NCBI GenBank assembly: GCA_029247135.1
Contig: JAQWLS010000067.1
Location: 1 to 37,040 of the forward strand
Length of the DNA stretch: 37,040 bases
Direction: 5' to 3'
Origin: Dehalococcoidia bacterium
Lineage (GTDB): Bacteria > Chloroflexota > Dehalococcoidia > UBA2979
Shown here: positions 20,582 to 36,466 of the stretch, piece after piece
Layout of the letters: the number at the start of each line of letters is the position of its first letter
Numbering within the stretch: position 1 is the stretch's first letter
The notes under the pieces: model-generated
The model's input: the letters and a program-made list of their open reading frames with translations, nothing else
What the model was told of the DNA's origin: nothing
Databases searched by the model: none
Made by a program: the position numbers and the translations under genes

Positions 20582-21862
20582 ATGGTAACCAGCAATAATG
20601 CGATGGATATTCTTGGCAAGCCGTTAGATGGAATTAAAGTACTGGCAATGGAGCAGGCTGTTGCGTTACCGATGGCGACATTCCATCTGGCCGCGTTAGG
20701 TGCTGAGATAATCCGAGTTGAGAGTCCAGACCGTGCACGCGCGAACTATCTTGAACACGATCTTTTACGAGATAAGCAACGCCTAGGATTGAATTTGAAT
20801 AAGCCGGGAGCGGCTGATTTATTTAGGCAACTTGCTCAGGAGGTCGATATTGTTGCTCATAACTTCACGCCTCGGGTAATGCGCAAATTTGAGATTGATT
20901 ATGAATCAATACGACGGGTAAGGCCTGAAACAATCTATTTATCAATTACTGGATTTGGAACAACTGGCGGGTGGAGTGACAGGCCTCTTTTTGGTCCAGG
21001 AGCAGAGGCGATTGCTGGCAATTATCAATTGATTGGTGAAGCAGAGGACTGGCCTGGCCGCCCCGGCACAATAGTGTATGCCGATGACAATTGTGGAGCT
21101 CATGCACTAGTCGCGGTGCTCGCTGCTCTTGAGCGACGAGACGATTCAGGGGTTGGATCACACCTCGACGTATCTCTTTATGAAACCTCAGTGTCGATGC
21201 TGGGCCCAGTTATTGCTGAGAGAGCTATTGGTGGAAATTTTCCTATCCGATCTGGCAATTCTGATAGTCGGTACGCAATTCATGGTGTATTCCCGCTATC
21301 CGGACTCGATCGTTGGATTGCACTCGCTGTAAATAAGGAACAGATTCCTGATTTACTCAATACTCTTGGATTGGCTATTAATTCAAATTATTCTGACGAA
21401 GCTATTAGTGAGGTAACCCAAGAAATGCTTGGAGACGATTTGGTAGCTCGATTGCAATCCGCCAATATAGATTCGCATTTGGTATCTGATGTTGCAGATC
21501 ATTTTATTGATCCTAAATTACAGACCCGAAACTACTTTACCTCGATGCTGTGGGATGGAAATCGGCATCCTACAAAGAGTACAATTTGGGGTGGCGGAAT
21601 GACCCTAGAGCCCATTCCGGCTCGAGATGTAGGCGCGGATAATCATACAATTTTAAACAATCTTCTCAAATTAACAACTGCAGAAATTCAGCAACTTGAG
21701 AAGACTGAGATTATTGGATCGGGCATTCCAGCGATTGAAAGAGAACCTATGCATGCAGCTGAGCAGCAGATCAGAATTGATAGAAGAGAACTCACCCGAA
21801 TCGAAAACAGGCCATCGATAAGGGGACCTGCTCAATCTAGTAAAGTAGGCACCGATGGTTAG
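20582..21862 (+). CDS. CaiB/BaiF family (class III) CoA-transferase
   Basis: GIKVLAMEQAVALPMATFHLAALGAEIIRVESP, DIVAHNFTPRVMRKFEIDYESIRRVRPETIYLSITGFG, GSHLDVSLYET (catalytic Asp context). Confidence 0.92.
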   Translation: MVTSNNAMDILGKPLDGIKVLAMEQAVALPMATFHLAALGAEIIRVESPDRARANYLEHDLLRDKQRLGLNLNKPGAADLFRQLAQEVDIVAHNFTPRVMRKFEIDYESIRRVRPETIYLSITGFGTTGGWSDRPLFGPGAEAIAGNYQLIGEAEDWPGRPGTIVYADDNCGAHALVAVLAALERRDDSGVGSHLDVSLYETSVSMLGPVIAERAIGGNFPIRSGNSDSRYAIHGVFPLSGLDRWIALAVNKEQIPDLLNTLGLAINSNYSDEAISEVTQEMLGDDLVARLQSANIDSHLVSDVADHFIDPKLQTRNYFTSMLWDGNRHPTKSTIWGGGMTLEPIPARDVGADNHTILNNLLKLTTAEIQQLEKTEIIGSGIPAIEREPMHAAEQQIRIDRRELTRIENRPSIRGPAQSSKVGTDG

Positions 21863-22889
21863 GAAAATACTGGAAATTGGCTCGGGCGTAGCGGTCGGTT
21901 ATGCCACTCAGGTATTGACGAGTGTTGGTTGGGAGGTCACCAAAGTAATTCCCAGTGGGTATGACTTTTTGACTGAAATGCAATCTCGTTGGGGTGGTGG
22001 TACTGGAGGAGCGTCCCTGTTTCTCGATAAAAATAAGCGAATTGTTGATTCGGATGAGTTTGATATATTATCCCACGCATTGGATTTCGACGTTGTAATC
22101 GGAGATTTTTCAAAGCAGAATATAGATCAGTTTGCGCTGCCAACGAATGTATTTAGTTCACTAGATGTTGGCTGTTCTCTTATCTCATTAACTTCTTTTG
22201 GTTTGGATCAATTGCTCTCAAATCAGCCTCATGCAGATTTAATTCTTCAAGCTGCAAGCTCATTGCTCTATCTGACAGGAGAACATCATCAAGCACCCCA
22301 ACAGTTACCTCCTTACACGGCACAGATGAGCGGAGGCTTAGCGGCCTCAAGCGCGGCGATTGCGGCAGTACGAGCCTATCGCCTTGATAAACAAGTGCGT
22401 CGAATTGATTTATCTATTGTCGAGGCTCTAGCCATTCATAGTTTTACTCAGTCGGCTTCCTATGTGCATCGAGGTGAGATTGCGAGACGTGAACCCGAGA
22501 TCAAAGAAGGACTTCGGATAGTTCCGACACTCGATGGATACGTTTATTGTGCCCCTGGGGCAACTGCAAGTATGAGGATGGATGGAATTGCAGATTTAAT
22601 TAATGAACCCCGACTGAAGAATGAGAAATTTCAAACTGCGGTGGGGCGCAAGAATAACTATGAAGAATTTATAAATCTGTTTGTACCACCATTTAAGGAG
22701 CGAACTGCTAGGGAATGGTTTTTGCGGGCGGAAGAATTGCACCTTACTTTTTCATTAATTCGCACAATTGATGAGTTATTTTTTTGTGAACAACTGGACG
22801 AACGAGATGTCTGGACAGAAATTAAAACGTCGACTGGCGATAACGTAAGGATTCCAGGCAGACCTTTTTTTGCCGAACCAGCCTTCTGA
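21855..22889 (+). CDS. Divergent, short CaiB/BaiF-family CoA-transferase
   Basis: 344 aa, overlaps the previous CoA-transferase by 8 nt. LILQAASSLLYLTGEHHQAPQQLPPYTAQMSGGLAASSAAIAAVRAYRL...RRIDLSIVEAL matches the CaiB fold order and keeps the Asp position. Confidence 0.75.
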   Translation: MVRKILEIGSGVAVGYATQVLTSVGWEVTKVIPSGYDFLTEMQSRWGGGTGGASLFLDKNKRIVDSDEFDILSHALDFDVVIGDFSKQNIDQFALPTNVFSSLDVGCSLISLTSFGLDQLLSNQPHADLILQAASSLLYLTGEHHQAPQQLPPYTAQMSGGLAASSAAIAAVRAYRLDKQVRRIDLSIVEALAIHSFTQSASYVHRGEIARREPEIKEGLRIVPTLDGYVYCAPGATASMRMDGIADLINEPRLKNEKFQTAVGRKNNYEEFINLFVPPFKERTAREWFLRAEELHLTFSLIRTIDELFFCEQLDERDVWTEIKTSTGDNVRIPGRPFFAEPAF

Positions 22890-22982
22890 CAGGGTCATGA
22901 TTTCTGAATTTAGCATCGGTAGAGCATTTCAATCTGTATTACTGATAGGATTTAACAGCGTCACTGTACCTGAGGGAGATTT

Positions 22983-23807
22983 ATGAACTCACAACTACAT
23001 TTCGACAAGATTTTAGCGTTCTTGGATGGCCCGGATTCACCTGATATTGCAAATCCCATTCATTCCACGGCTGGCGCTGCAAACTATGGTTTTAAAGGCG
23101 CCCTCGTTGGGGGCGCGACCGTATTTGGGTGGGCGGCACCTCTGATTTTAGAAACGTTGGGTACTGACTGGTTACAGAATGGCTGGGCCTCGATATCGTT
23201 CCGTCGACCTACATACCCAGGAGAGGAACTAGTGATTTCACTCGACGCAACTGGGCCGCAAGAGTTTTTGTTGAAGATCAGCGGGACGGATGGAAATGAC
23301 AGACTGAAGGGCGAGATCGGAATCGGCAGGGCTCCGTGGTTGGGTGAAATTGTTGATACCGAAAGATCAAAGGCCGTAGTGAGTCAGACGGAATTGCCGA
23401 TTTTGACTCTCTCTGTAGCACCTATCGGCCAAACTCTCTCGCCACTTGGAGATTCGTTATCGGTGCCAGATGCGATCTCTTACGGGGCTGATAAACAAAG
23501 AAGTAAAGATGACCTCTTTGTTGGAGAGAAACCAATTGCACATCCCGGCTGGATATGTGCGAGACCTATAAGATTTTTGCATCACTCCTATAACTACTCA
23601 CCAGCTATACATGCCAAGAGTCGGATTCAATTTTTTGGAGAAATTCAGGCAGGTGATAGTATCGTTACCACAGGAACTTTTGTAGAGGCTTATGAACGAA
23701 AAGGTCATACGTACGGTGTCGTAGACTGTTCAACATTTAATTCACTCGGTGTCGAAGTCATTCGGCAGCGCCACACCACTATTTTTGCAGTTGGAGAACG
23801 CGAGTGA
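22983..23807 (+). CDS. MaoC-like hot-dog dehydratase (mesaconyl-C4-CoA hydratase/HTD2-like)
   Basis: KGALVGGATVFGWAAPLIL, HPGWICARPIRFLHHSYNYSPAIHAKSRIQFFGEIQAGDSIVTTGTFVEAYERKGHTYGVVDC; double hot-dog length. Confidence 0.7.
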   Translation: MNSQLHFDKILAFLDGPDSPDIANPIHSTAGAANYGFKGALVGGATVFGWAAPLILETLGTDWLQNGWASISFRRPTYPGEELVISLDATGPQEFLLKISGTDGNDRLKGEIGIGRAPWLGEIVDTERSKAVVSQTELPILTLSVAPIGQTLSPLGDSLSVPDAISYGADKQRSKDDLFVGEKPIAHPGWICARPIRFLHHSYNYSPAIHAKSRIQFFGEIQAGDSIVTTGTFVEAYERKGHTYGVVDCSTFNSLGVEVIRQRHTTIFAVGERE

Positions 23808-26260
23808 ATATGGCGCAAGGTCCATTGCGTGAAATTACGGTGACGGACCTATCTAATTCTGTATCAGGTGCTTGGTGTTCTCGACTACTTGCTGATTATG
23901 GTGCTGACACGACCATGATCGAAGAATTGAGTGGCCATTTAGTACGAAGTTTTAATCCGCGAACTGAGGATGGCACGGGAGTTCTTGAAGGATGGTTTCT
24001 TGCCAATAAGAGATCGATGTTGTGCGAACCAACTGATGAGCATTCTCGAGCGCAGGTTCTGAATCGCGTCGTGAAGTCTGATATCGTAATTCTTCCTGAA
24101 CGAAATTCAAGATTTGAGGAGATGTTGTCAGGGTTACCGTTTTCAAGTCAGGTGCGAGTCGGTATTAGTCCTCATGGTTCGGCAGGAGAGTTATCTGGCA
24201 CACCCGGTAATGATCTAACGAACGCTGCTCGGTCTGGCTGGGCCTCAATTAATGGCACGTTGGGCCAAGCGCCCTTGAAGCCAAGCGGGTGGCAGACAAG
24301 TTACTGTGCTGGGACATTTGCAGCACTGGGCGCAATTAGTTCACTTCGGAAGAGAGTGCTAACTGGGAAGGGAGTATTGCTCGATATTTCAGAATTAGAT
24401 ACCGCTGTATCTGCTCTTTCTCCCGGTTTTTTGCAGAGTCAGTATAGTGGTGATCCAGTTCGTCAAAGCCCGGCCAATGATTTGTCGGGTGGACCAGTTC
24501 GGATAGCAGATGGTTACTTCGCCTTAACTCTCTCCAGGGCACATTTTTGGCGAGATGCAATGAATTTACTAGGCTTAACAGATCTAGCAGAGGATCCCCA
24601 GTGGCAGAGCCAATTGAATCGCCGTGAACGTAAAACTGAGTATATGGAACGAGTGATTGGTGCAATGTCTTTGTGGCGAAAAGAAGAGTTGTTTGATGAG
24701 TTAGCTTTGCGTCGAGTTGTTGCTGGCCCGGTGCTTAATATGCAAGAATTAACTGAGAATAAGCATCTGCAGGGACGAAATTTTTGGCAGCAAGTTGGCG
24801 ATGAGGAGACTGGTAAAATATTTCCAGGTCCCGCTGCAAAAATGTCTATTACTCCTATAACTACTCGAAAATTAGCGCCAACAATTGGAGAAAATACCAA
24901 GGAATTGACTTCAGACGTCGCCGATTCATATCAATTTACGGAATCGAAGCACGACACTTTGCCTGATCAAGGCAATTTACCACGGTCCAAAGGTCCACTC
25001 GCTGGGCTCACAGGAATTGTTTTAACGCAGGCATGGGCCGGCACGTATTGCACGATGCTGCTTGCAATGCTTGGAGCTGATGTTATTCAGGTTGAGGTAC
25101 GCCGCCGGCCTGATGGCTGGCGTGGAGGCTATGACGGGAAAATTCCAATAATGCTTCGCGATAGAGAGACCGCCGTGCACCCTTGGAATTGTGGACCACT
25201 TTACAATTCAGTCAATCTTGGTAAACGGTGTGTAACGCTCGACCTGTCTCAACCTGAGGGACTAACAGCCTTTCGAAAACTTGTTAGTGAAGCTGACTTT
25301 GTGGCTGAAAATTTTTCTCCCAGAGTTATGAATAATTTTGGTGTTGGTTACGAATCGTTGAAGGAGATCCGAGCAGATGTGATTTTATGTTCTCTTTCTG
25401 CGTACGGCCACACAGGTCCTTGGGCGAATGTGCCGGGCATCGGCGGCACCATCGAACCCAGTTCTGGCATGTCAAGCCTTTTGGGATATGACGATGGGGT
25501 ACCTTTAAATTCTGGTCAGATGTATCCCGATGCGGTAGCCGGACTTAATGCTGCGACCGCGATCGCGGCTGCTCTCTACCACAGAGAACTCACGGGAGAT
25601 GGCCAATTTATTGATCTGTCGATGATGGAAGCTAACCTGACGTTCGTTGGTGAGGCGCTCTCTGAAACTCTTTGGACAGGAGCTATACCTGGTCCCCTAG
25701 GTAATAAACATCGAACTTGGGCTCCCCATGATATTTATCAGGGGCAAAACAAGGATGATACAACAAAGACCTTCATTGCTATTGGATGTGAAACAGATTC
25801 TCAGTGGAAGAGGCTTAGCAAGCTCATATTGGCACAGACTCAGAATATTGATTTATCGAAGTTTGACACACTGGACGGTCGGAAGATGCATGAGCTAGAA
25901 CTTGATATGGTTGTGGCAGACTTCTGTCGAACATCTGACATCGACACGCTCACCAGAAATCTTCAACAAAACGGAATCCCGTCATCACCCGTGCGTAATA
26001 CTTTCGACGTGAGCTTCGATAGCGATCTCATTTCACGTGGCCTATTGCAGGATATTGATCACCCTGAGGCTGGCCATGCGTATCAAGCAACTCTGCCGAT
26101 TCAATTTGATGGATGCAAGGTGACTGATATAGGTGCATCACCCTGTCATGGTGAGCACAGTTGGGAGATACTAAGAGACTTTACGGATATGGATGAAGAG
26201 ACATTTGAGCGACTCGTTGGGATAGGAATCACAGGGGAAGGACCACCCCCTGGTACGTGA
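23804..26260 (+). CDS. Tandem two-domain CaiB/BaiF CoA-transferase
   Basis: 818 aa with two CaiB-like halves; domain 2 from GLTGIVLTQAWAGTYCTMLLAMLGADVIQVE. Asp contexts GVLLDISELD (half 1) and GQFIDLSMMEA (half 2). GTG start overlaps the upstream stop by 4 nt. Confidence 0.9.
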   Translation: MNMAQGPLREITVTDLSNSVSGAWCSRLLADYGADTTMIEELSGHLVRSFNPRTEDGTGVLEGWFLANKRSMLCEPTDEHSRAQVLNRVVKSDIVILPERNSRFEEMLSGLPFSSQVRVGISPHGSAGELSGTPGNDLTNAARSGWASINGTLGQAPLKPSGWQTSYCAGTFAALGAISSLRKRVLTGKGVLLDISELDTAVSALSPGFLQSQYSGDPVRQSPANDLSGGPVRIADGYFALTLSRAHFWRDAMNLLGLTDLAEDPQWQSQLNRRERKTEYMERVIGAMSLWRKEELFDELALRRVVAGPVLNMQELTENKHLQGRNFWQQVGDEETGKIFPGPAAKMSITPITTRKLAPTIGENTKELTSDVADSYQFTESKHDTLPDQGNLPRSKGPLAGLTGIVLTQAWAGTYCTMLLAMLGADVIQVEVRRRPDGWRGGYDGKIPIMLRDRETAVHPWNCGPLYNSVNLGKRCVTLDLSQPEGLTAFRKLVSEADFVAENFSPRVMNNFGVGYESLKEIRADVILCSLSAYGHTGPWANVPGIGGTIEPSSGMSSLLGYDDGVPLNSGQMYPDAVAGLNAATAIAAALYHRELTGDGQFIDLSMMEANLTFVGEALSETLWTGAIPGPLGNKHRTWAPHDIYQGQNKDDTTKTFIAIGCETDSQWKRLSKLILAQTQNIDLSKFDTLDGRKMHELELDMVVADFCRTSDIDTLTRNLQQNGIPSSPVRNTFDVSFDSDLISRGLLQDIDHPEAGHAYQATLPIQFDGCKVTDIGASPCHGEHSWEILRDFTDMDEETFERLVGIGITGEGPPPGT

Positions 26261-26280
26261 GAAATAGGGAAGGATTCGGT

Positions 26281-27120
26281 ATGTCAAAATTTGATAATGT
26301 ACAGTACGAGGTTGAGGGATCTATAGCCATCATTACGTTGGATCGAGTGCGATACCGCAATGCATTAAGTGACTTTTTGATGTCAGATCTTGATGCTGCG
26401 TTCAAGGAGGCGGTGAAGGATCGAGATGTCCGAGTAATTACTTTGTTTGGTGCTGGCGATCACTTTTCCGGTGGACATGATTTAGGCTCTCCTCAACGAG
26501 AGGAGGCCGAAGAACTTAATCCCACTGAGGAAGGTATTCGTGGTACATATCGACGATCTTGGGATTTTGATGTGGAACGCGGTCTTCGGTGGCGAAGTTT
26601 AGAGAAACCTCTCGTTGCAGCTGTTCAGGGGTATTGTATATTCGCTGCATGGGCAGTGGCATCTTGTGCCGACGTCATCTTTGCATCTGATGACGCACTC
26701 TTTCTTCCGTCGAATTTTCAATATTTTTCGGTACCGTGGGATATCCATCATCGTAAGGCGAAGGAAATCTTATTTGAGAGTAGGTTCGTTGATGCTGAGG
26801 AGGCCAAGACCGCTGGCCTGGTGAACCGGATATATCCATTAGAAGACCTAAGAACTGAAACTCTTGCGTACGCACAACGAGTGAGTGAGAATGACCCGTT
26901 TAAGCTTCGTATGATGAAAATGGCTGTGAATCAGGCACTTGATATTCAAGGGTTCACTGCGCATATACAAGGGTCATACGCACACTACAGTTTGTCCGCT
27001 AACGCTGAAAAAGATCCCGGATATGCACTGAGTAAACCAGAGGTAAAACGACGACCCAATGTGCAGCGCGCCTTGGATCATTACTTGGAAGAACAAGCCC
27101 GCAAGGATACGGACGATTGA
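26281..27120 (+). CDS. Enoyl-CoA hydratase/isomerase (crotonase) family protein
   Basis: IAIITLDRVRYRNALSDFLMSDL, GDHFSGGHDLGS, KPLVAAVQGYCIFAAWAVASCADVIFASDDALF. Start reset to ATG 26281. Confidence 0.92.
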   Translation: MSKFDNVQYEVEGSIAIITLDRVRYRNALSDFLMSDLDAAFKEAVKDRDVRVITLFGAGDHFSGGHDLGSPQREEAEELNPTEEGIRGTYRRSWDFDVERGLRWRSLEKPLVAAVQGYCIFAAWAVASCADVIFASDDALFLPSNFQYFSVPWDIHHRKAKEILFESRFVDAEEAKTAGLVNRIYPLEDLRTETLAYAQRVSENDPFKLRMMKMAVNQALDIQGFTAHIQGSYAHYSLSANAEKDPGYALSKPEVKRRPNVQRALDHYLEEQARKDTDD

Positions 27121-27157
27121 AGCGCATGCACGGCAAGCCGAAAAAACGGGAGCATAT

Positions 27158-28141
27158 GTGATTAGGTTCAGCAAATTTGTTCTGGTAAGTAGTCTCTGCT
27201 TAATTTTGGCTTGTAACGATGGTGGAGTAACTGACCGCGAGTTAGATTTCTCGTCTGAACCTGTAGCTCGGGGCTGGGAAGATGTTGGGATCGTTCCACG
27301 ACGAGCAAGTTCTCCTCCGGGACTTGGGCAATCACGGGTAAGTTTTGCATTTACCAGTGAGATTGATGGAGCCTCTGCGTTCCGACACGATCTACAAGGA
27401 ATTGTTGAATTGTTTCAGCTGACCGGTGCAGGGGAGCCGGGCACTACCGGGACTCAAGCCGCGGTGGCTAGCTTAGAACGCGTGTCTATCGGCCGTAATG
27501 AGAAAGTTCATATACATGCCGACGGAAGTAGTCACATTCATAAAGATCCGGCCGTTTCCGTCTACGCAGCGCTAATGGATTTTCCGACTGGTGGTTCGTG
27601 GGGTGCAAGGTTCATCTTGAATAACGGTACAGAAGATATCAAGCCCTTTCTTCTTACTTTTTTAGTGCAGGATAAAAAACTAATTTCGTCTTCCGGCTCT
27701 ATAATTCCTGAATCTCGGCAAGAAATCGTGAGCGATTCAATTCCGATTGCGACACTTTCGTCAGCAAACCCACCCAATCCAGAGATGCACAGCATTACCA
27801 TTGCCGACGCACTGTCTCGTTCGCAACCATTGGTGATTTCATTTATCACGCCGGCATTTTGTCAATCGAAGCTTTGTGGTCCGGTTCTGGAGGAAGCGGT
27901 TAATCCGAATTTTTTACGCTATCGTGAGTCGGTAACCTTCATTCATATCGAACCCTATGATATCGCTAGTCTACAGTCGGGTTCTGGCTTTCAACTTGTA
28001 GATATTATGACTGAATGGAATTTAAAAACTGAACCTTGGGTATTCGTAATTGGCACTGACGGTAAGGTGATTGTGGGTCTTGAAGGAATTACGAATGAGG
28101 CAGAACTGGCACGTTATATAGATAGGGCGTTAGCGAATTAG
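27158..28141 (+). CDS. Lipoprotein with thioredoxin-like C-terminal domain
   Basis: GTG start at 27158 (GGGAG upstream); signal FVLVSSLCLILAC lipobox; C-terminal PLVISFITPAFCQSKLCGPVLEE...FIHIEPYD...TEPWVFVIGTDGKVIVGLEG. Confidence 0.75.
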   Translation: MIRFSKFVLVSSLCLILACNDGGVTDRELDFSSEPVARGWEDVGIVPRRASSPPGLGQSRVSFAFTSEIDGASAFRHDLQGIVELFQLTGAGEPGTTGTQAAVASLERVSIGRNEKVHIHADGSSHIHKDPAVSVYAALMDFPTGGSWGARFILNNGTEDIKPFLLTFLVQDKKLISSSGSIIPESRQEIVSDSIPIATLSSANPPNPEMHSITIADALSRSQPLVISFITPAFCQSKLCGPVLEEAVNPNFLRYRESVTFIHIEPYDIASLQSGSGFQLVDIMTEWNLKTEPWVFVIGTDGKVIVGLEGITNEAELARYIDRALAN

Positions 28142-29622
28142 GCGGCCGACAACTTTGCCGCTGAGGCACCAGCTATCCGACCAAATACCGAGCCGGCCAT
28201 CAACCCGGTTCCGCCAGCATAATTATGATAAAAAAGACCTCCGAGTAGTTCGCCCGCTGCGTAAAGACCCGGGATAGGAATATCTTCAGTATCCAATACT
28301 TGTCCAGTATTGGCGATTGATCGGAGTCCACCAAATGTGAATGTGATCCCGCAAGTCACCGCGAAGCCAACATATGGTGGTTCATTTAGGGGAAGTGCCC
28401 AATTAGATTTAGGAGGAGATATGCCTTGTGTTGCTACATTATCGCGTACGGCGGGATCGTAGTCTCCACCTTGGCACGCTGCATTGAACTCATCGATAGT
28501 AAGTTTTAGTTGATATGGATTAATGCCAAGATCGGTGGCTAGTTCCTCTATTGAATTAGCCTCGGCCTTGGACACTTCCTTTATTCGATATTCGTCTCGT
28601 AATCGATGAACTGTTTGTTGGTCGAATAGTTGGAAGGCGGTGCCGTAGGGTTGCTTGAGGATTTCACGTCCGTATTTTGCGTAGGTGTAATTTCGCATAT
28701 CGGCACCCTCATCGACAAAGCGTTCGCCGTTGGTATTTACGATCACACCAAGTGGATATGAGTGCTTCTGGTAGAGGTCTCCGATTCGTCGATTGCCAGT
28801 TGGTGGGGCGTTTAAATCCCAAGCGACCGCGTGTGCAGACGACCAATGTCCGTGGGGTTGTGCACCTATATCCAGTGCGGAACGAATTACCTCACCCGTG
28901 TTATGCCGCGACCCTCGAACCTTAGCAAATTCCCAACCTGCTCCCAGATAGCGAGTGCGCATTTCAACATTAGCTTGAAAGCCACCAGCCGCTAGAACCA
29001 CCGATTCACAATCCATCACTTTGAAACCATCTTGGTTTTTTATCTCGATGCCTGAAATAGCTCCGGTAGAGTGGGTAAGTAACTTCGTCATTTTCGACCC
29101 ATACTCGACGTTAATCCCGAGTCGTTCCGTGGCACGGAATAGCGAATCAGAGAGTCCTTCACCTCCGCCAACAGCCTCAGTTATCATTCCACCCCAAAAC
29201 TTCAGGATGCCGTTTACTTCGTACGCTTGTCGGCCATACATGAGTACCCATCGAACCGAGGCATAATTCCGCATCCATTTCACTGTGTCGAAGGCGTTGT
29301 CTACAAGTGTCACGACCATCTGTTCATCGGCGAGCCCCTCGCTTACGCGTAACAGATCGTCAGACATGCTCTTCCGCGGATAGGTACCCACGTCAATCTT
29401 CTTAATTTCTTCTGCAGATAGATCTGGTATCAGCTGTTGGATGTCGGAGAGGTCGTCATATGGGTATCGGAATCCACCTCCTGTAAAGAACGTGTTGCCG
29501 CCTCTTTCTTCATAAGAGGCTTTCTCGATAACCGTCACGTCTGCACCTTGTTCATGCGCTGAGATTGCTGCACATAAGGCAGCATTGCCTGCGCCAATCA
29601 CAATTACTCGATTTTGAGTCAT
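28138..29622 (-). CDS. FAD-dependent oxidoreductase, tricarballylate dehydrogenase (TcuA)/fumarate reductase flavoprotein-like
   Basis: RVIVIGAGNAALCAAISAHEQGADVTVIEKA (Rossmann), ERGGNTFFTGGGFR, TFGGLRSIANTGQVL, IPGLYAAGELLGGLFYHNYAGGTGLMAGSVFGRIAG. Confidence 0.9.
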   Translation of the reverse strand: MTQNRVIVIGAGNAALCAAISAHEQGADVTVIEKASYEERGGNTFFTGGGFRYPYDDLSDIQQLIPDLSAEEIKKIDVGTYPRKSMSDDLLRVSEGLADEQMVVTLVDNAFDTVKWMRNYASVRWVLMYGRQAYEVNGILKFWGGMITEAVGGGEGLSDSLFRATERLGINVEYGSKMTKLLTHSTGAISGIEIKNQDGFKVMDCESVVLAAGGFQANVEMRTRYLGAGWEFAKVRGSRHNTGEVIRSALDIGAQPHGHWSSAHAVAWDLNAPPTGNRRIGDLYQKHSYPLGVIVNTNGERFVDEGADMRNYTYAKYGREILKQPYGTAFQLFDQQTVHRLRDEYRIKEVSKAEANSIEELATDLGINPYQLKLTIDEFNAACQGGDYDPAVRDNVATQGISPPKSNWALPLNEPPYVGFAVTCGITFTFGGLRSIANTGQVLDTEDIPIPGLYAAGELLGGLFYHNYAGGTGLMAGSVFGRIAGASAAKLSAA

Positions 29623-29635
29623 CGTTTAGACCTCG

Positions 29636-32113
29636 CTAGCCATCACTAATGATTGAGTTTGTCGTCACTAATTTTTCACGTAAAGAACTAATGTCATCGG
29701 CGGTGTAGCCAAGTTCACTTAATATTGCGTCGCTATCACCACCGAATGTAGGTCCTGATCGAGCAGGAACTTGTGATCGTCGTTTGAATCGCCAAGAAGG
29801 CCTAGCTGTAAGATGATCTCCCGCGACGTCATGATGCACTGAAATAAACATGTCACGCGAGATTAAGTGAGGATCTTTACTAATTTGTAATGGCGTAAGT
29901 ACAGGCGACGCGTCAACACCTGCATTTTGGAGGGTGAGGGCAGTGGTCGTGGCATCTTGTGTTTTTGCCCAATCAGTGATTATTTGATTGATCTCGTTTT
30001 CATGAACTTTTCTTCCGCTTGTACTGATATAGTCCGGGTTTTGTAAGCCAGCAATCTGTGTAGCCTCAACGAACGCTTGCCATTCCTCATTTGTTCTGCA
30101 TGAGAGAGCCAACCACATGTCATTTACATAAGATGCGGGCTGTCGATCTGGTCCAAGAACAGGTCTCATATCATCGCTGGGACGACATTCAAATATACCG
30201 TGCGGTGCAAAGGTAGAATGCTCAGCACCGGACCGAATGGAAAGAGGGGATCCTAACTGTTCGGCTACAATAAACTCGCCAATTAATCCTGTAATTCCGT
30301 CCCGTTGTGGAATTAGGCAATAGCTTCCCTTACCAGTTGTCGCTCGGTTCACGAGCGCCGTAGCCACCGCAGCTCCGCACGTCGCACCTGCGATTGGATC
30401 TCCATACGATATACCGGACTTATGAGGCGGTCCGTCTTTATAGCCTTGCAAAGCGACTAATCCGCCCATTTGCTCAATAGTGGGACCAAACCCGACACGT
30501 TCGGCATCAGAGCCTTTATGACCGAATCCAGGCATTGATACGTAGATGATGTTGGGATTGAGTTCCTTTAAATTTTCGTAACTTAAGCCATTCCTATCTG
30601 CGACGCCGGACGACCAGTTCTCTATGAATATGTCTGCTGTTTTAATTAATTTTTTAAGCGCGTCCATACCCTCTGACTGCTTGATGTCCAGAATAAGACT
30701 GCGTTTCCCCCGGTTATATTCGTTAAAGTAAGTCGAAAGATCAATTTCTGGTGACGTTGTCGTGCCGACCATGGTACGAATCGGATCTGGAAACGAAGGA
30801 CCTTCGACCTTGATTACATCGGCACCCATATCGGCGAGGAAGCGCCCCCCGTATGGACCTGCCCAGACTTGCGTCATATCGATTGCACGGAGTCCATCAA
30901 AGGGAAGTGCTGGGATACCACTTGAACTGTTAGGGTGTGAACTTACCGGAATATCTACTGAGAGCTCTTCGAGTACCTCAGACGTGTGCTGACCTATGAG
31001 CGGAGCTGCGGCAGGCTCTCCACGATTAGTATTTCCAAACTGAATAGGGCCAGACGGCACCAGATACTCACCAAAAATTGGATGATCTACAGATTGCCAA
31101 AATCCAATCTCTTCATAGTGAGGCCATGTGAGTAATTCTGCAGGAGTTGGGATGACTGAGAACGGAGCCCTGTAATTCGAAGCGATTTTAAATATATCTT
31201 TGGCGGTATGTTGAATGGTAAACGCGGGGATAAGGTGACTGAGAAGCTCGTTGGCCTCGATTGCCCATCCACCGTTGGCGAATATCGGATCGGCTTTAAG
31301 ATCTTCATGCCCCATCGCATCTAATACTGAATTTGTCTGCCGTGGCATTGATGCCACACCTATCCAACCATCAGCTGCCTCATGAATGCCCCACATCGCA
31401 CGGGCAGAATTTCCGGTTCGGACACCTTCGCCACCAAACCACAGGGCGACGGGACCTGCTCCTTCAAGAGTGGCGGCTTGCACTTCTTGCACAGACATGT
31501 CGAGAATATCTCCTTGTCCGGTCATTTTCGCTGCATAGAGAGCAGTAATGAGGCCACCAAAGGCCTGCAGACCGGCCTGATAATACGCCTGATGTCCGGC
31601 AGTCAGAAGCGGTGGTTTATCGGGATCGCCAGCCATATAGAGTTGCCCACCGGCCGCAGCTGCAGTAAGTGCACTTGCGGTCCAGTGCCGTTTTGGTCCC
31701 GTCTGGCCGTATGCGGTTATATGGCAGACAACGAGCGAGTCTTTTTCAGTTAATAAGCCTTCAAGATCTAGGTTGTGTTCGGTAAGCCAGTCGGGGACGT
31801 AGCCATCGATGACTGCATCTGACGCGAGGATGAGCTTTCGTAAAGATTCGACGCCGGAGGGGTCACTGAAATCGATTTCCATCGAACGTTTACCGGTGCC
31901 GAGGTAACCGAAAAGCACACTGGAATTTGGATTGTTAGCGTCATCAGTCCAGGGAGGGAGGTGCCGAATTGCATGACCTTCTTTAGGCTCGATTGTGATT
32001 ACATCGGCGCCATATATCGCAGACAGGCGGCCAGCGAATGCAGACGCAACGTCTGTACCCAGCTCGACTATTTTTAATCCCTTGAGTGGATGATCAGAAT
32101 TCGTGTTCGTCAT
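29636..32113 (-). CDS. Tandem two-domain CaiB/BaiF CoA-transferase
   Basis: LKIVELGTDVASAFAGRLSAIYGADVITIEP (half 1) and LRAIDMTQVWAGPYGGRFLADMGADVIKVEGP (half 2). Start at MTNTNSD (32113) with GGGAGAG upstream. Confidence 0.92.
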   Translation of the reverse strand: MTNTNSDHPLKGLKIVELGTDVASAFAGRLSAIYGADVITIEPKEGHAIRHLPPWTDDANNPNSSVLFGYLGTGKRSMEIDFSDPSGVESLRKLILASDAVIDGYVPDWLTEHNLDLEGLLTEKDSLVVCHITAYGQTGPKRHWTASALTAAAAGGQLYMAGDPDKPPLLTAGHQAYYQAGLQAFGGLITALYAAKMTGQGDILDMSVQEVQAATLEGAGPVALWFGGEGVRTGNSARAMWGIHEAADGWIGVASMPRQTNSVLDAMGHEDLKADPIFANGGWAIEANELLSHLIPAFTIQHTAKDIFKIASNYRAPFSVIPTPAELLTWPHYEEIGFWQSVDHPIFGEYLVPSGPIQFGNTNRGEPAAAPLIGQHTSEVLEELSVDIPVSSHPNSSSGIPALPFDGLRAIDMTQVWAGPYGGRFLADMGADVIKVEGPSFPDPIRTMVGTTTSPEIDLSTYFNEYNRGKRSLILDIKQSEGMDALKKLIKTADIFIENWSSGVADRNGLSYENLKELNPNIIYVSMPGFGHKGSDAERVGFGPTIEQMGGLVALQGYKDGPPHKSGISYGDPIAGATCGAAVATALVNRATTGKGSYCLIPQRDGITGLIGEFIVAEQLGSPLSIRSGAEHSTFAPHGIFECRPSDDMRPVLGPDRQPASYVNDMWLALSCRTNEEWQAFVEATQIAGLQNPDYISTSGRKVHENEINQIITDWAKTQDATTTALTLQNAGVDASPVLTPLQISKDPHLISRDMFISVHHDVAGDHLTARPSWRFKRRSQVPARSGPTFGGDSDAILSELGYTADDISSLREKLVTTNSIISDG

Positions 32114-32214: not shown

Positions 32215-32694
32215 TTAGTAACCTGTGTCGATTTGACTGGAATTGTCGAAATATACCTGGAGGCTCGGTAAATATCGGAAGAATAGGTCAGCCTTAAATC
32301 CGTCCTCAAGATCATTTCGATGAATCGGTTCGTCGTACTTAAGATCAAGGGTGTTGAGAGTCCAGTCGAGACTTGCTGTTCCGTTCTTTCTAATATCCTT
32401 GAGCATGTCTTTCCATTGGGCCGGCTCGAGTTCGATGATAAAGTCGCAGTCACGCATCTCATCTTCATCGATTTCCTGTATCTCATGAATGTTCAGAACA
32501 TCAAAATTAGCCTGTACGATTGAATTCCCTGACTTGAAGGCGACTACCGCATTTAATCTGCCAAACTTCTGGTATTGAGTATCTTCTCGCGTAATCGTAG
32601 CGACAGCCTCAAACCAAGCTACCGATGGGAACTTGGTCTTCTTTGTCGTTGCCTTTTTAGCAGTTGCCTTTTTAGCGGTTGTTTTCGTTGCCAT
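32215..32694 (-). CDS. SCP2-like (sterol carrier-type) protein with Lys/Ala/Thr-rich N-terminal tail
   Basis: MATKTTAKKATAKKATTKKTK tail, then FPSVAWFEAVATI...CDFIIELEPAQWKDMLKDIRKNGTASLDWTLNTLDL, resembling SCP2-type order. GGGAG 7 nt upstream of ATG. Confidence 0.6.
   Translation of the reverse strand: MATKTTAKKATAKKATTKKTKFPSVAWFEAVATITREDTQYQKFGRLNAVVAFKSGNSIVQANFDVLNIHEIQEIDEDEMRDCDFIIELEPAQWKDMLKDIRKNGTASLDWTLNTLDLKYDEPIHRNDLEDGFKADLFFRYLPSLQVYFDNSSQIDTGY
32648..32677 (-). repeat. Tandem 15-bp repeat (2 near-perfect copies) encoding the Lys/Ala tail
   Basis: gttgcctttttagca | gttgcctttttagcg on the plus strand (one mismatch). Confidence 0.8.
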
Positions 32695-32745: not shown

Positions 32746-33042
32746 TTAAAAGTCGATCGGGTCCCCTGGGTCTTCCGCAGCACTAAACGGAGTGAGACGA
32801 TTTAGATGTCTCATGGGTTCGGCTTCGGGTGTACGAGCCATGTGGTCTTCAACCATTCGCTTATACGCCGGATCGATTGTGCGTATTTTATCGAGTTCGC
32901 TTTGTGGTGTTGCAAACGTGCTCAGGCGGCGCTTTAAATCGCCACCACAGTCTTTACAGGTGCTGGGCTCGTCATGTCCTCGTCGAATAAGTACTTCGGA
33001 GACACTTTCGCAACCAGTGCAATCATAGTTATAGAGAGGCAT
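32746..33042 (-). CDS. FmdB-type zinc-ribbon protein
   Basis: MPLYNYDCTGCESVSEVLIRRGHDEPSTCKDCGGDLKRRLS (CxxC...CxxC, FmdB-type N-terminus). Confidence 0.82.
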   Translation of the reverse strand: MPLYNYDCTGCESVSEVLIRRGHDEPSTCKDCGGDLKRRLSTFATPQSELDKIRTIDPAYKRMVEDHMARTPEAEPMRHLNRLTPFSAAEDPGDPIDF

Positions 33043-33060: not shown

Positions 33061-34233
33061 TTATTTCTTACCACTATTTTTTTGCATAATTGCGGCTACT
33101 TGCGCACGCATTTCATCTGGGGTTGCATGTCCAGTCATTGGCACACCCATGAGAATCCCAGCCCACGCGCCAGATTTGATCTGGGCTTCACGTCCGAGGT
33201 TGGCTTGACTGCACTTACTAATGTAAGTTTCTAAGAAATGTTGCTGTAGTTCCAAAACAATTTTCATGCCCTCATCCATATTCTCAACACCATCTCCAAA
33301 GATGATCGCTAGGGCTTCCCACAGCACAGGATCATTGAAGTCAGAAAGCTGCGCGAACTCTGCGACTGTCAATCCAGCATTGAATGTTGTAATTAATTCG
33401 GGCTTCTTTGAAATTGCGAATCTAATATGGTCACATGCATACGCGGACTTCCGCATTATATCTGGAAGAATCCTGAACGCTAATTCACGATCAGCTTCGG
33501 TCGGACCATAGACGGACAAATATCGCACGATAGCTTGCATAAGCGAGCCGCGAAGAATCCACATGAATAAAACGGTATTCGACCAACTTCCATAGGATTC
33601 GAGGCACGCGCGGTTCATGCGGCCAGGACTTTCAAGCATCATTCCAGCACCATTAAGCAGTGCTCGCTTGCGATAGCCTTCTTCAATTCTGGCTGAATCA
33701 TAAACCGCGGTCGAGAGGTAATATTTAACCTCGTGATAGCCAGGGCTCAGGTTTTGCAACCAGGCTGAAACAACCTCAGATTCCACGGAACCCCAGTTAG
33801 AAAGCTCTGTCGCAACCTGGGCAATTGCAACTTCAACATCATCCGAGAGGCCTCGTCCTGTCTCCCAAGGGATATCAGTCGCAGTAGACCATCGTCGGGA
33901 AATACCTTCTTCATACAGGTATGGCGACGAATCAGCCCATTGTTCATATTTATCTTGGATGTAGTAGCCACCGATATTTCCAGCGCTAATCACAGGGACT
34001 GCTCCTCGGGGGAGCCGGTTCCTGTGCGGTATGTGCTCAGGGATATCACCGTATATTCCAATGTTCAGCGCCGCAAGCGTAAGACCGCCGCCATATCGCT
34101 CAGGGAGAGCCTTAGTGCCCCACTGGAATGTATTTCCCATCCAGCTGAGATCAGGCAAATCAGGAAGAGGATTTCCCTCATAATCAACTTTATCAGCCGG
34201 CTTAGCAGCTTTTGCTTTTTTTGCTTGTGCCAT
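33061..34233 (-). CDS. Ferritin-like protein paralogue lacking the diiron ligands
   Basis: Shares YEEGISRRWSTATDIPW and YDSARIEEGYRKRALLNG with the upstream ferritin-like gene (YEEAVQRQWSSATDIPW, MDEARHADVFRKRALANG). Start set to MAQAKKAK (34233). Confidence 0.75.
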   Translation of the reverse strand: MAQAKKAKAAKPADKVDYEGNPLPDLPDLSWMGNTFQWGTKALPERYGGGLTLAALNIGIYGDIPEHIPHRNRLPRGAVPVISAGNIGGYYIQDKYEQWADSSPYLYEEGISRRWSTATDIPWETGRGLSDDVEVAIAQVATELSNWGSVESEVVSAWLQNLSPGYHEVKYYLSTAVYDSARIEEGYRKRALLNGAGMMLESPGRMNRACLESYGSWSNTVLFMWILRGSLMQAIVRYLSVYGPTEADRELAFRILPDIMRKSAYACDHIRFAISKKPELITTFNAGLTVAEFAQLSDFNDPVLWEALAIIFGDGVENMDEGMKIVLELQQHFLETYISKCSQANLGREAQIKSGAWAGILMGVPMTGHATPDEMRAQVAAIMQKNSGKK

Positions 34234-34315: not shown

Positions 34316-35443
34316 TTAGGCCGAGATGTATTCAGTTAAACCTGCAGCAGCTCGTCCGTTTGTGAAACGGTCACCGAACCCGGCTACTTTGATTCGCTGG
34401 ATGTACTCCTTAACCTGTCGTTGTCGGACGGCACCAGCAATCTGCTCACCTTCTCGGAGAGATGCCTCATCAGTGCCGCCACCAAGAAGAGTCATAATTG
34501 CAGCATTAGAAGGTGTCCCTCGCACTGCTGGGTTCTGACCACCTGTGCCAGCGACCAAACCAAGTTCAATCTCATCAAGGTACGAGTGAATCTCTTCTGT
34601 TCTCTCCGGATCGGTCTGAGAGACATACTGTAGGTGCATCACACCAAATGCTACGTGTCGTGATTCATCTGATGCAGCGAGACGATAAATCGCCTTTTCA
34701 GCATTGTTATAAGCCATTCGCTCACCCATTCGGAAAATAGACAGTACTAGACCTTCTCCTGAGATATGCAGACGTGCTGACATTTCAGTGAAGTCACGCG
34801 CTGAGTCGATCGATGCTCCGGCCAAAGCAGCACTGGAATTCTGTTGCAACAGGCCTCCACCGTTAGCTAGGGCTCGCTTTCTAAATACATCAGCATGTCT
34901 TGCTTCGTCCATAATTTGAGAAATCAGGAACATTCGAGGTTCGTAGTAATCAGGAGAGGTCTCACTGATCCAGCGACCCGGGACGTCACCGGCAACGAAC
35001 TCAACTTCAGTTAAAAAAGTCGCAAGTTGGCATTCAGCCTGCTCGATTTCATCAGGTAGTTCTTCAAGTTCATTCCAAGGTATATCAGTCGCGGATGACC
35101 ACTGTCGTTGCACAGCTTCTTCGTAGAGCTGGGCACCATTCTTTAGCCAGACGTCAGCCTTAGTACGAATTCCGTACTTACCAATTCTTGCGGCGCTTGG
35201 GCGGGTTAACGCACCACGCGGCCTACCGGTTACGTTGTTGGTCCACTCAGGCACTTCAGCAAATGGTCCGGAGTCAACATCTTGTAGAAGTAACCCACCA
35301 CCGTTTGATGGTGCATCTAGTTCATCACCAAACGTTTCTCGCTGTTGTAGCCAGTCGAGTTTGTATCCGTTGTTCTTCCCATAGTCGAGCAATTGCTCAA
35401 ATGTGTTTGGGGCTGCGGTGTTCGCTTTGGACTTTGTGGCCAT
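34316..35443 (-). CDS. Ferritin-like diiron protein (putative diiron oxygenase)
   Basis: Two intact motifs: E-X30-DEARH (TEVEFVAGD...QIMDEARH) and E-X28-DESRH (SGEGLVLS...AASDESRH). Start at MATKSK (35443) with GGGAGG upstream. Confidence 0.82.
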   Translation of the reverse strand: MATKSKANTAAPNTFEQLLDYGKNNGYKLDWLQQRETFGDELDAPSNGGGLLLQDVDSGPFAEVPEWTNNVTGRPRGALTRPSAARIGKYGIRTKADVWLKNGAQLYEEAVQRQWSSATDIPWNELEELPDEIEQAECQLATFLTEVEFVAGDVPGRWISETSPDYYEPRMFLISQIMDEARHADVFRKRALANGGGLLQQNSSAALAGASIDSARDFTEMSARLHISGEGLVLSIFRMGERMAYNNAEKAIYRLAASDESRHVAFGVMHLQYVSQTDPERTEEIHSYLDEIELGLVAGTGGQNPAVRGTPSNAAIMTLLGGGTDEASLREGEQIAGAVRQRQVKEYIQRIKVAGFGDRFTNGRAAAGLTEYISA

Positions 35444-36022: not shown

Positions 36023-36110
36023 TGGTGCCGGGAGTGGGACTCGAACCCACACAAGGAAATTCCTCGGCAGATTTTAAGTCTGCTGCGTCTGCCAATTCCG
36101 CCATCCCGGC
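36023..36110 (-). tRNA. tRNA-Leu (anticodon UAA), CCA encoded
   Basis: GCCGGGATGGCGGAATTGGCAGACGC...ACTTAAAATCT...GGTTCGAGTCCCACTCCCGGCACCA; long variable arm; acceptor GCCGGGA/TCCCGGC. Confidence 0.95.
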
Positions 36111-36141
36111 ACGTCCTCGGTTGTAGTCGAGGGAATTGCTT

Positions 36142-36215
36142 TGGAGGCGCCGACCGGAATCGAACCGGTGATAAAGGTTTTGCAAACCTCTGCCTTACCA
36201 CTTGGCCACGGCGCC
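36142..36215 (-). tRNA. tRNA-Cys (anticodon GCA), CCA encoded
   Basis: GGCGCCGTGGCCAAGTGGTAAGGCAGAGGTTTGCAAAACCTTTATCACCGGTTCGATTCCGGTCGGCGCCTCCA. Confidence 0.95.
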
Positions 36216-36287
36216 CTTAAGCACTACGAAGTCTATCAAAAGAATCGTCTAACAAGAAACTGACGTGCTCGAATAGATCAGGCGATA

Positions 36288-36373
36288 TGGTGCCCGGGAT
36301 GAGATTCGAACTCATACACCCAAAGGGCACTGCCCCCTCAAGACAGCGCGTCTGCCAATTCCGCCACCCGGGC
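36288..36373 (-). tRNA. tRNA-Leu (anticodon GAG), CCA encoded
   Basis: GCCCGGGTGGCGGAATTGGCAGACGCGCTGTCTTGAGGGGGCAG...GAGTTCGAATCTCATCCCGGGCACCA; stem CTGTC/GGCAG, loop TTGAGGG. Confidence 0.94.
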
Positions 36374-36390
36374 ATGGATTTCGGAGGTTT

Positions 36391-36466
36391 TGGCAGGGGA
36401 GACAGGGATCGAACCCGCGACCTACGGTGTTGGAGACCGTCGCTCTACCAACTGAGCTACTCCCCT
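36391..36466 (-). tRNA. tRNA-Trp (anticodon CCA), 3' CCA encoded
   Basis: AGGGGAGTAGCTCAGTTGGTAGAGCGACGGTCTCCAACACCGTAGGTCGCGGGTTCGATCCCTGTCTCCCCTGCCA; discriminator G73. Confidence 0.95.

Follow-up and report, generated by a model that had tools for sequence, protein, structure and literature searches.

A ligand-less paralogue as the probable structural subunit of a heteromeric R2/R2lox-type diiron oxygenase in Dehalococcoidia

Beta, a 390-aa protein encoded at 33061-34233 on the minus strand (ATG at 34233, stop at 33061), carries none of the six metal ligands that are present in alpha, the paralogue encoded just upstream. We consider beta to be the ligand-less structural subunit of a heteromeric diiron oxygenase of the R2/R2lox (ferritin-like) type, with a probability of about 0.8. 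The assignment of beta is based on alignment, structural model, tree, ligand columns and dN/dS. Both genes lie in the window, the whole stretch of 37,040 nucleotides of a Dehalococcoidia genome that was analysed. Alpha (375 aa; 34316-35443, minus strand) is a diiron-type subunit with an R2/R2lox/MMOH fold. Each of the two is present in one copy in the window's genome, the assembly of which is 72% complete. Upstream of alpha, four tRNA genes (Trp, Leu-GAG, Cys and Leu-TAA) are clustered at 36023-36466 on the minus strand.

Beta retains the fold of alpha and lacks its metal site

Beta had been described in a sequence-only reading as a paralogue of the upstream ORF. This relationship extends over the full length of the proteins (28% identity over 360 aa, E 7e-39), and the profile-profile alignment of beta with alpha by hhalign had a probability of 100 over 342 columns. 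The pairings given by that reading for the first three motifs, LTEVEFVAGD/LSNWGSVESE, MDEARHADVFRKRAL/YDSARIEEGYRKRAL and SGEGL/LRGSL, were reproduced, and alpha and beta share the conserved flanks RxWSxATDIPW and RKRALxNG, as it had stated. The register of the fourth motif was wrong: SDESRHVAF pairs with PDIMRKSAY and not with ACDHIRFAI. BLAST, MAFFT and hhalign alike aligned LAASDESRHVAFGVMHLQY with RILPDIMRKSAYACDHIRFA. In the corrected register, D259-E-S-R-H263 of alpha equals D258-I-M-R-K262 of beta, and the losses at this motif are E260 to I259 and H263 to K262. ACDHIRFAI aligns about nine residues downstream of motif 4; its His269 corresponds to H270 of alpha, outside the six ligands. 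The conclusion of ligand loss stands despite the error, since all six ligand positions are occupied by non-ligand residues in beta (G148, S180, I183, G229, I259 and K262; segment 33448-33792, minus strand, with columns mapped on alpha in the hhalign register).

That the fold is kept, as had also been claimed, is supported by the AlphaFold model of beta (pLDDT 86.8). Its best PDB matches were R2 and R2lox (best E 8e-4, TM about 0.4-0.5 by query length). Beta matched no family in Pfam and NCBIfam, and the PDB sequence search with it gave nothing usable. Individual betas gave scattered weak hits in Pfam, which were regarded as chance.

Alpha as a candidate diiron protein

The ligand set of alpha comprises E148, E180-x-x-H183, E230 and E260-x-x-H263 (codon starts 35002, 34906, 34897, 34756, 34666 and 34657, minus strand), and 47 of 47 alphas carry all six residues. 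In profile alignments, the two ExxH motifs of alpha coincide with their counterparts in R2lox and in a VlmB homologue. The R2lox model of NCBIfam matched every member of the alpha alignment weakly. The match of alpha to NF006200 (E 3.5e-8) reached 33 bits against a curated cut-off of 194 bits and is thus far below the family threshold. At the PDB profile level, R2lox was matched with E about 1e-4. Foldseek matches of the alpha model, a single-chain model of mediocre quality (pLDDT 76), included R2, R2lox, MMOH (1fzi) and phenol hydroxylase (2inp). By profile and fold, R2lox and class I RNR R2 are the nearest to alpha. In the Pfam search of the window proteins, no family was found for alpha at E<=0.01, and Ribonuc_red_sm, with E 0.27, was far below its cut-off. 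Judged from the conserved residues, alpha is predicted to bind a dimetal centre through these six positions.

Ligand loss across the homologues

Homologues were searched in 60 relatives, 294 genomes of the class and 400 genomes of the phylum, and 60 stretches were fetched. Family members were detected in 82 of the 294 sampled Dehalococcoidia genomes, some of which carry several pairs, and also elsewhere in the phylum Chloroflexota. Ligands were scored in 91 classified homologues (47 alphas and 44 betas). None of the beta orthologues keeps all the ligands: 13 betas retain none, 13 retain one and 18 retain two, nearly always histidines. Of the carboxylates, E230 and E260 are absent from all 44 betas and E148 and E180 are each present in 1/44; H183 is kept in 24/44 and H263 in 23/44. 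In the window's genus and most of its family, the betas have zero ligands left. The pattern is not attributable to chance, because 47/47 alphas agree at all six positions and each of the four carboxylates persists in just 0-1 of 44 betas. As read from this pattern, without formal reconstruction, the simplest order of loss would be carboxylates first and histidines later.

The residue replacing E260 in betas is K in 15, R in 14, L in 7, I in 5, A in 2 and T in 1. Next to the ligand positions, D179 and D258 are acidic in 100% of betas, R261 is invariant and R182 is conserved at 90% or more. With these four residues retained, the helical scaffold is maintained while the first shell has been lost. 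Alternative ligands at the site were also considered. All 15 betas from the window's family share E143, E151, E153 and H167. Even so, the window's subfamily is unlikely to have a private metal site, as these positions are acidic, His or Cys in only 57-77% over all betas. No beta-specific set of Glu, Asp, His or Cys near the site, and no alternative Glu/His set at it, was found conserved in all betas.

A single-sequence scan of genome contigs matched the nearest relative only. On plasmids no beta was found, and alpha matched only distant ferritin-like proteins at 20-30% identity; in two plasmid regions with such matches, no paralogue was annotated alongside. A divergent tandem pair followed by P3 (a small protein described below) is present in another family of the class (L112:6132-9064), one member with six ligands and the other with two histidines only; it may have branched early from the same duplication. 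In Chloroflexota outside the class, relatives with all six ligands are encoded by single genes (L106:7917-9155, L108:6629-7840 and L107:7533-8294) and are a possible homomeric outgroup.

An old duplication inherited as a pair

In the tree, made by a quick method whose program flags long branches, the alphas and the betas are each set apart by a single supported branch (SH-aLRT 97 and 99). The alpha/beta split is an old duplication, with beta as one side of it. In about ten family codes, 35 of the 44 betas adjoin an alpha on the same strand; this count consists of 33 pairs together with L080, just over the distance limit, and L059, where alpha is cut by the contig end. For the nine non-adjacent betas, seven genomes were checked (all but G033 and G191), and an alpha was present elsewhere in each of them (G010, G024, G050, G059, G106, G156 and G197). 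At the 33 adjacent pairs, alpha and beta distances were correlated with r = 0.94 (0 of 5000 permutations), and with r = 0.80 for 443 far comparisons; such mirrored distances arise partly because adjacent genes are co-inherited, whether or not their proteins touch. Beta diverges faster than alpha, with a median distance ratio of 1.6. At one further locus (L074:6976-9923, G015), two alphas stand near-tandem with no recognised beta between them, and beta fragments are seen at contig ends of the same genome. Long ORFs resembling alpha-beta fusions (L092 and L083) run across the alpha ORF in a different reading frame and were not taken as fusions.

Values of dN/dS (NG86) were obtained against the nearest relative, farther comparisons being saturated at synonymous sites. 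The values for alpha, beta, the zinc ribbon and P3 were 0.024, 0.056-0.07, 0.09 and 0.02, respectively. Purifying selection on beta argues that it is not decaying. The earlier proposal of a selected loss of the metal site thus holds in substance, given this selection and the absence of ligands from every close orthologue. Its framing of beta as a pseudo-diiron paralogue is replaced by that of an old, co-inherited partner subunit, beta not being a recent pseudo-enzyme.

The cassette and its neighbours

The minus-strand order is alpha, beta, zinc ribbon, P3, double CoA-transferase and TcuA-like flavoprotein. In the window's subfamily the cassette is made of four genes: alpha, beta, an FmdB-type zinc ribbon and P3. 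The zinc ribbon protein (98 aa; 32746-33042, minus strand) contains CxxC...CxxC, matched TIGR02605 and PF09723 above cut-off, and ends in a conserved C-terminal tail (YKRMVED...TPEAEPMRHL...DPGDPIDF). In the window's subfamily, as in G416 and G430 outside the class, its gene separates beta from P3, and the long tail is conserved from the window's genus as far as these two.

P3 is a small conserved protein (159 aa; 32215-32694, minus strand) with a Lys/Ala-rich N-terminus followed by a globular part. Many cassettes have an orthologue of it downstream of beta or of the zinc ribbon. P3 comes immediately after beta in several other lineages, and in others none was found. At several loci where alpha lies elsewhere, P3 stays with beta. 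The Lys/Ala-rich N-terminal extension is present in the window's genus and missing from most orthologues. An SCP2 identity for P3 was rejected, the matches being non-significant (best SCP2 E 0.11; PDB 2cx7 E 0.74), as was that of an MmoB/DmpM-type coupling protein, for which there was no profile match. Pfam and NCBIfam hold no family covering alpha, beta or P3. From gene position and by analogy, one might guess that the zinc ribbon serves electron transfer and P3 regulation or substrate delivery.

Downstream of the cassette lie a double family III (CaiB/BaiF) CoA-transferase (825 aa; 29636-32113, minus strand; PF02515 E 1.9e-155) and a TcuA-like FAD-dependent dehydrogenase (494 aa; 28138-29622, minus strand; NF006130 E 2.1e-160, above cut-off). 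Several other genera of the family have a similar double CoA-transferase after P3, and the TcuA-like gene adjoins the cassette also in L055 and L056. These two are possible pathway neighbours. As functional evidence the CaiB adjacency is weakened by the 64 matches to PF02515 in the window's genome of 1.6 Mb. The cassette has no fixed reductase gene, and none was recognised among the window genes named downstream; a cognate NADH reductase may be encoded elsewhere. The region 20582-32113 holds two double and two single family III CoA-transferases within 12 kb, plus an enoyl-CoA hydratase, and a putative cyclase lies just upstream of this group.

Comparison with known diiron systems

In multicomponent monooxygenases (BMM), a diiron alpha with E...ExxH...E...ExxH is accompanied by a ligand-less paralogous beta. 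The model of the alpha described here resembles MMOH and phenol hydroxylase. However, it comprises 375 aa, whereas the matched MMOH and phenol hydroxylase chains have about 500; BMM hydroxylase profiles in Pfam matched neither alpha nor beta, and in the cassette no regulatory-protein family was matched and no reductase recognised. R2lox is not known to form a heteromer with a ligand-less paralogue.

The closest arrangement is that of PaaA/PaaC in PaaABCE, a diiron subunit with a structural paralogue of the same fold (PMC4498308). PaaA and PaaC share their fold at 17% identity; PaaA is catalytic, PaaC is structural, and PaaA alone is insoluble (PMC4498308). The likeness includes further small subunits and a setting in CoA metabolism (PMC4498308). 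In contrast to PaaABCE, a zinc ribbon and P3 follow beta here, and no counterpart of PaaB or PaaE was recognised. PF05138 (PaaA/PaaC) matched neither alpha nor beta, nor any other protein of the window's genome. The system thus probably works like an alpha/beta diiron oxygenase without being a member of any named family tested. Ligand-less partner subunits are of a known kind; the alpha/beta family described here appears undescribed.

Discussion

If beta is a structural subunit, alpha would bind the dimetal centre via E148, E180, H183, E230, E260 and H263 and activate O2. Beta, with the same fold, would pack against alpha and contribute structure, stability and a docking surface, not chemistry. 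The zinc ribbon and P3 would complete the system, perhaps in electron transfer, regulation or substrate delivery. The physical association of alpha with beta, the binding of iron, the activity as an oxygenase and the kind of substrate (acyl-CoA or hydrophobic) are inferred from the genes and models.

Beta could instead be an independent pseudo-enzyme, acting in ligand binding or regulation and linked to alpha only genetically. The nine of 44 betas not beside an alpha, most of which are beside P3, and the faster divergence of beta (ratio 1.6) are in line with such a role; its association with alpha in 35 of 44 cases over about ten family codes, on the same strand, the mirrored divergence (r = 0.94) and the presence of a non-adjacent alpha in seven of the nine remaining genomes make it unlikely. 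Less likely again is a beta that is active without a canonical dimetal site, by a displaced metal site or in the metal-free manner of class Ie R2 proteins, in which Glu ligands are replaced. E143, E151, E153, H167, D268 and H269 are conserved in close betas, some of them near the lost site, and class Ie R2 chains were among the Foldseek matches, though by fold only. But E143, E151 and H167 fall to 57-77% over all betas, H269, D179 and D258 are common to alpha and hence belong to the scaffold, and the replacement of E260 varies, unlike a fixed signature.

Alpha and beta could also form a heterodimeric RNR small subunit of the yeast kind, in which Rnr4 is without iron ligands. Yeast R2 is a heterodimer of R2 with an R2 paralogue, Rnr2/Rnr4 (PMC4245953), and R2 and R2lox dominate the fold matches obtained here. 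The yeast protein, however, is a eukaryotic RNR subunit; here Ribonuc_red_sm reached only E 0.27, no R2 family match is significant, the neighbours are catabolic with no R1 gene beside the cassette, and some genomes, e.g. G059, carry several paralogous pairs. An RNR role is therefore very improbable. Decay of a duplicate into a pseudogene would fit the loss of ligands taken alone, but is hardly credible for an ORF that is intact in close relatives, has a dN/dS of 0.056-0.07 and belongs to an old clade. The reading of beta as a structural subunit of an alpha/beta oxygenase is preferred.

A wider proposal is put forward tentatively, as somewhat less than an even chance. The cassette may represent an undescribed family of heteromeric diiron oxygenases with its own alpha/beta duplication in the R2/R2lox branch, independent of BMM and of PaaA/PaaC. 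The zinc ribbon and a new small subunit would replace the ferredoxin/reductase and coupling proteins, and the family may have multiplied in Dehalococcoidia for the catabolism of recalcitrant compounds. Published work on SAR202 has centred on flavin monooxygenases and CaiB/BaiF CoA-transferases (PMC5395668); a search of the available literature library for diiron proteins in SAR202 or Dehalococcoidia found no relevant paper. If the cassette encodes an oxygenase, an iron-based route would be added to the oxidative enzymes of this group of bacteria, with no implication that the window's genome belongs to SAR202. The graded loss of the metal site, with the carboxylates gone from nearly all betas and the histidines from some lineages, makes the family useful for understanding how heteromeric oxygenases originate.
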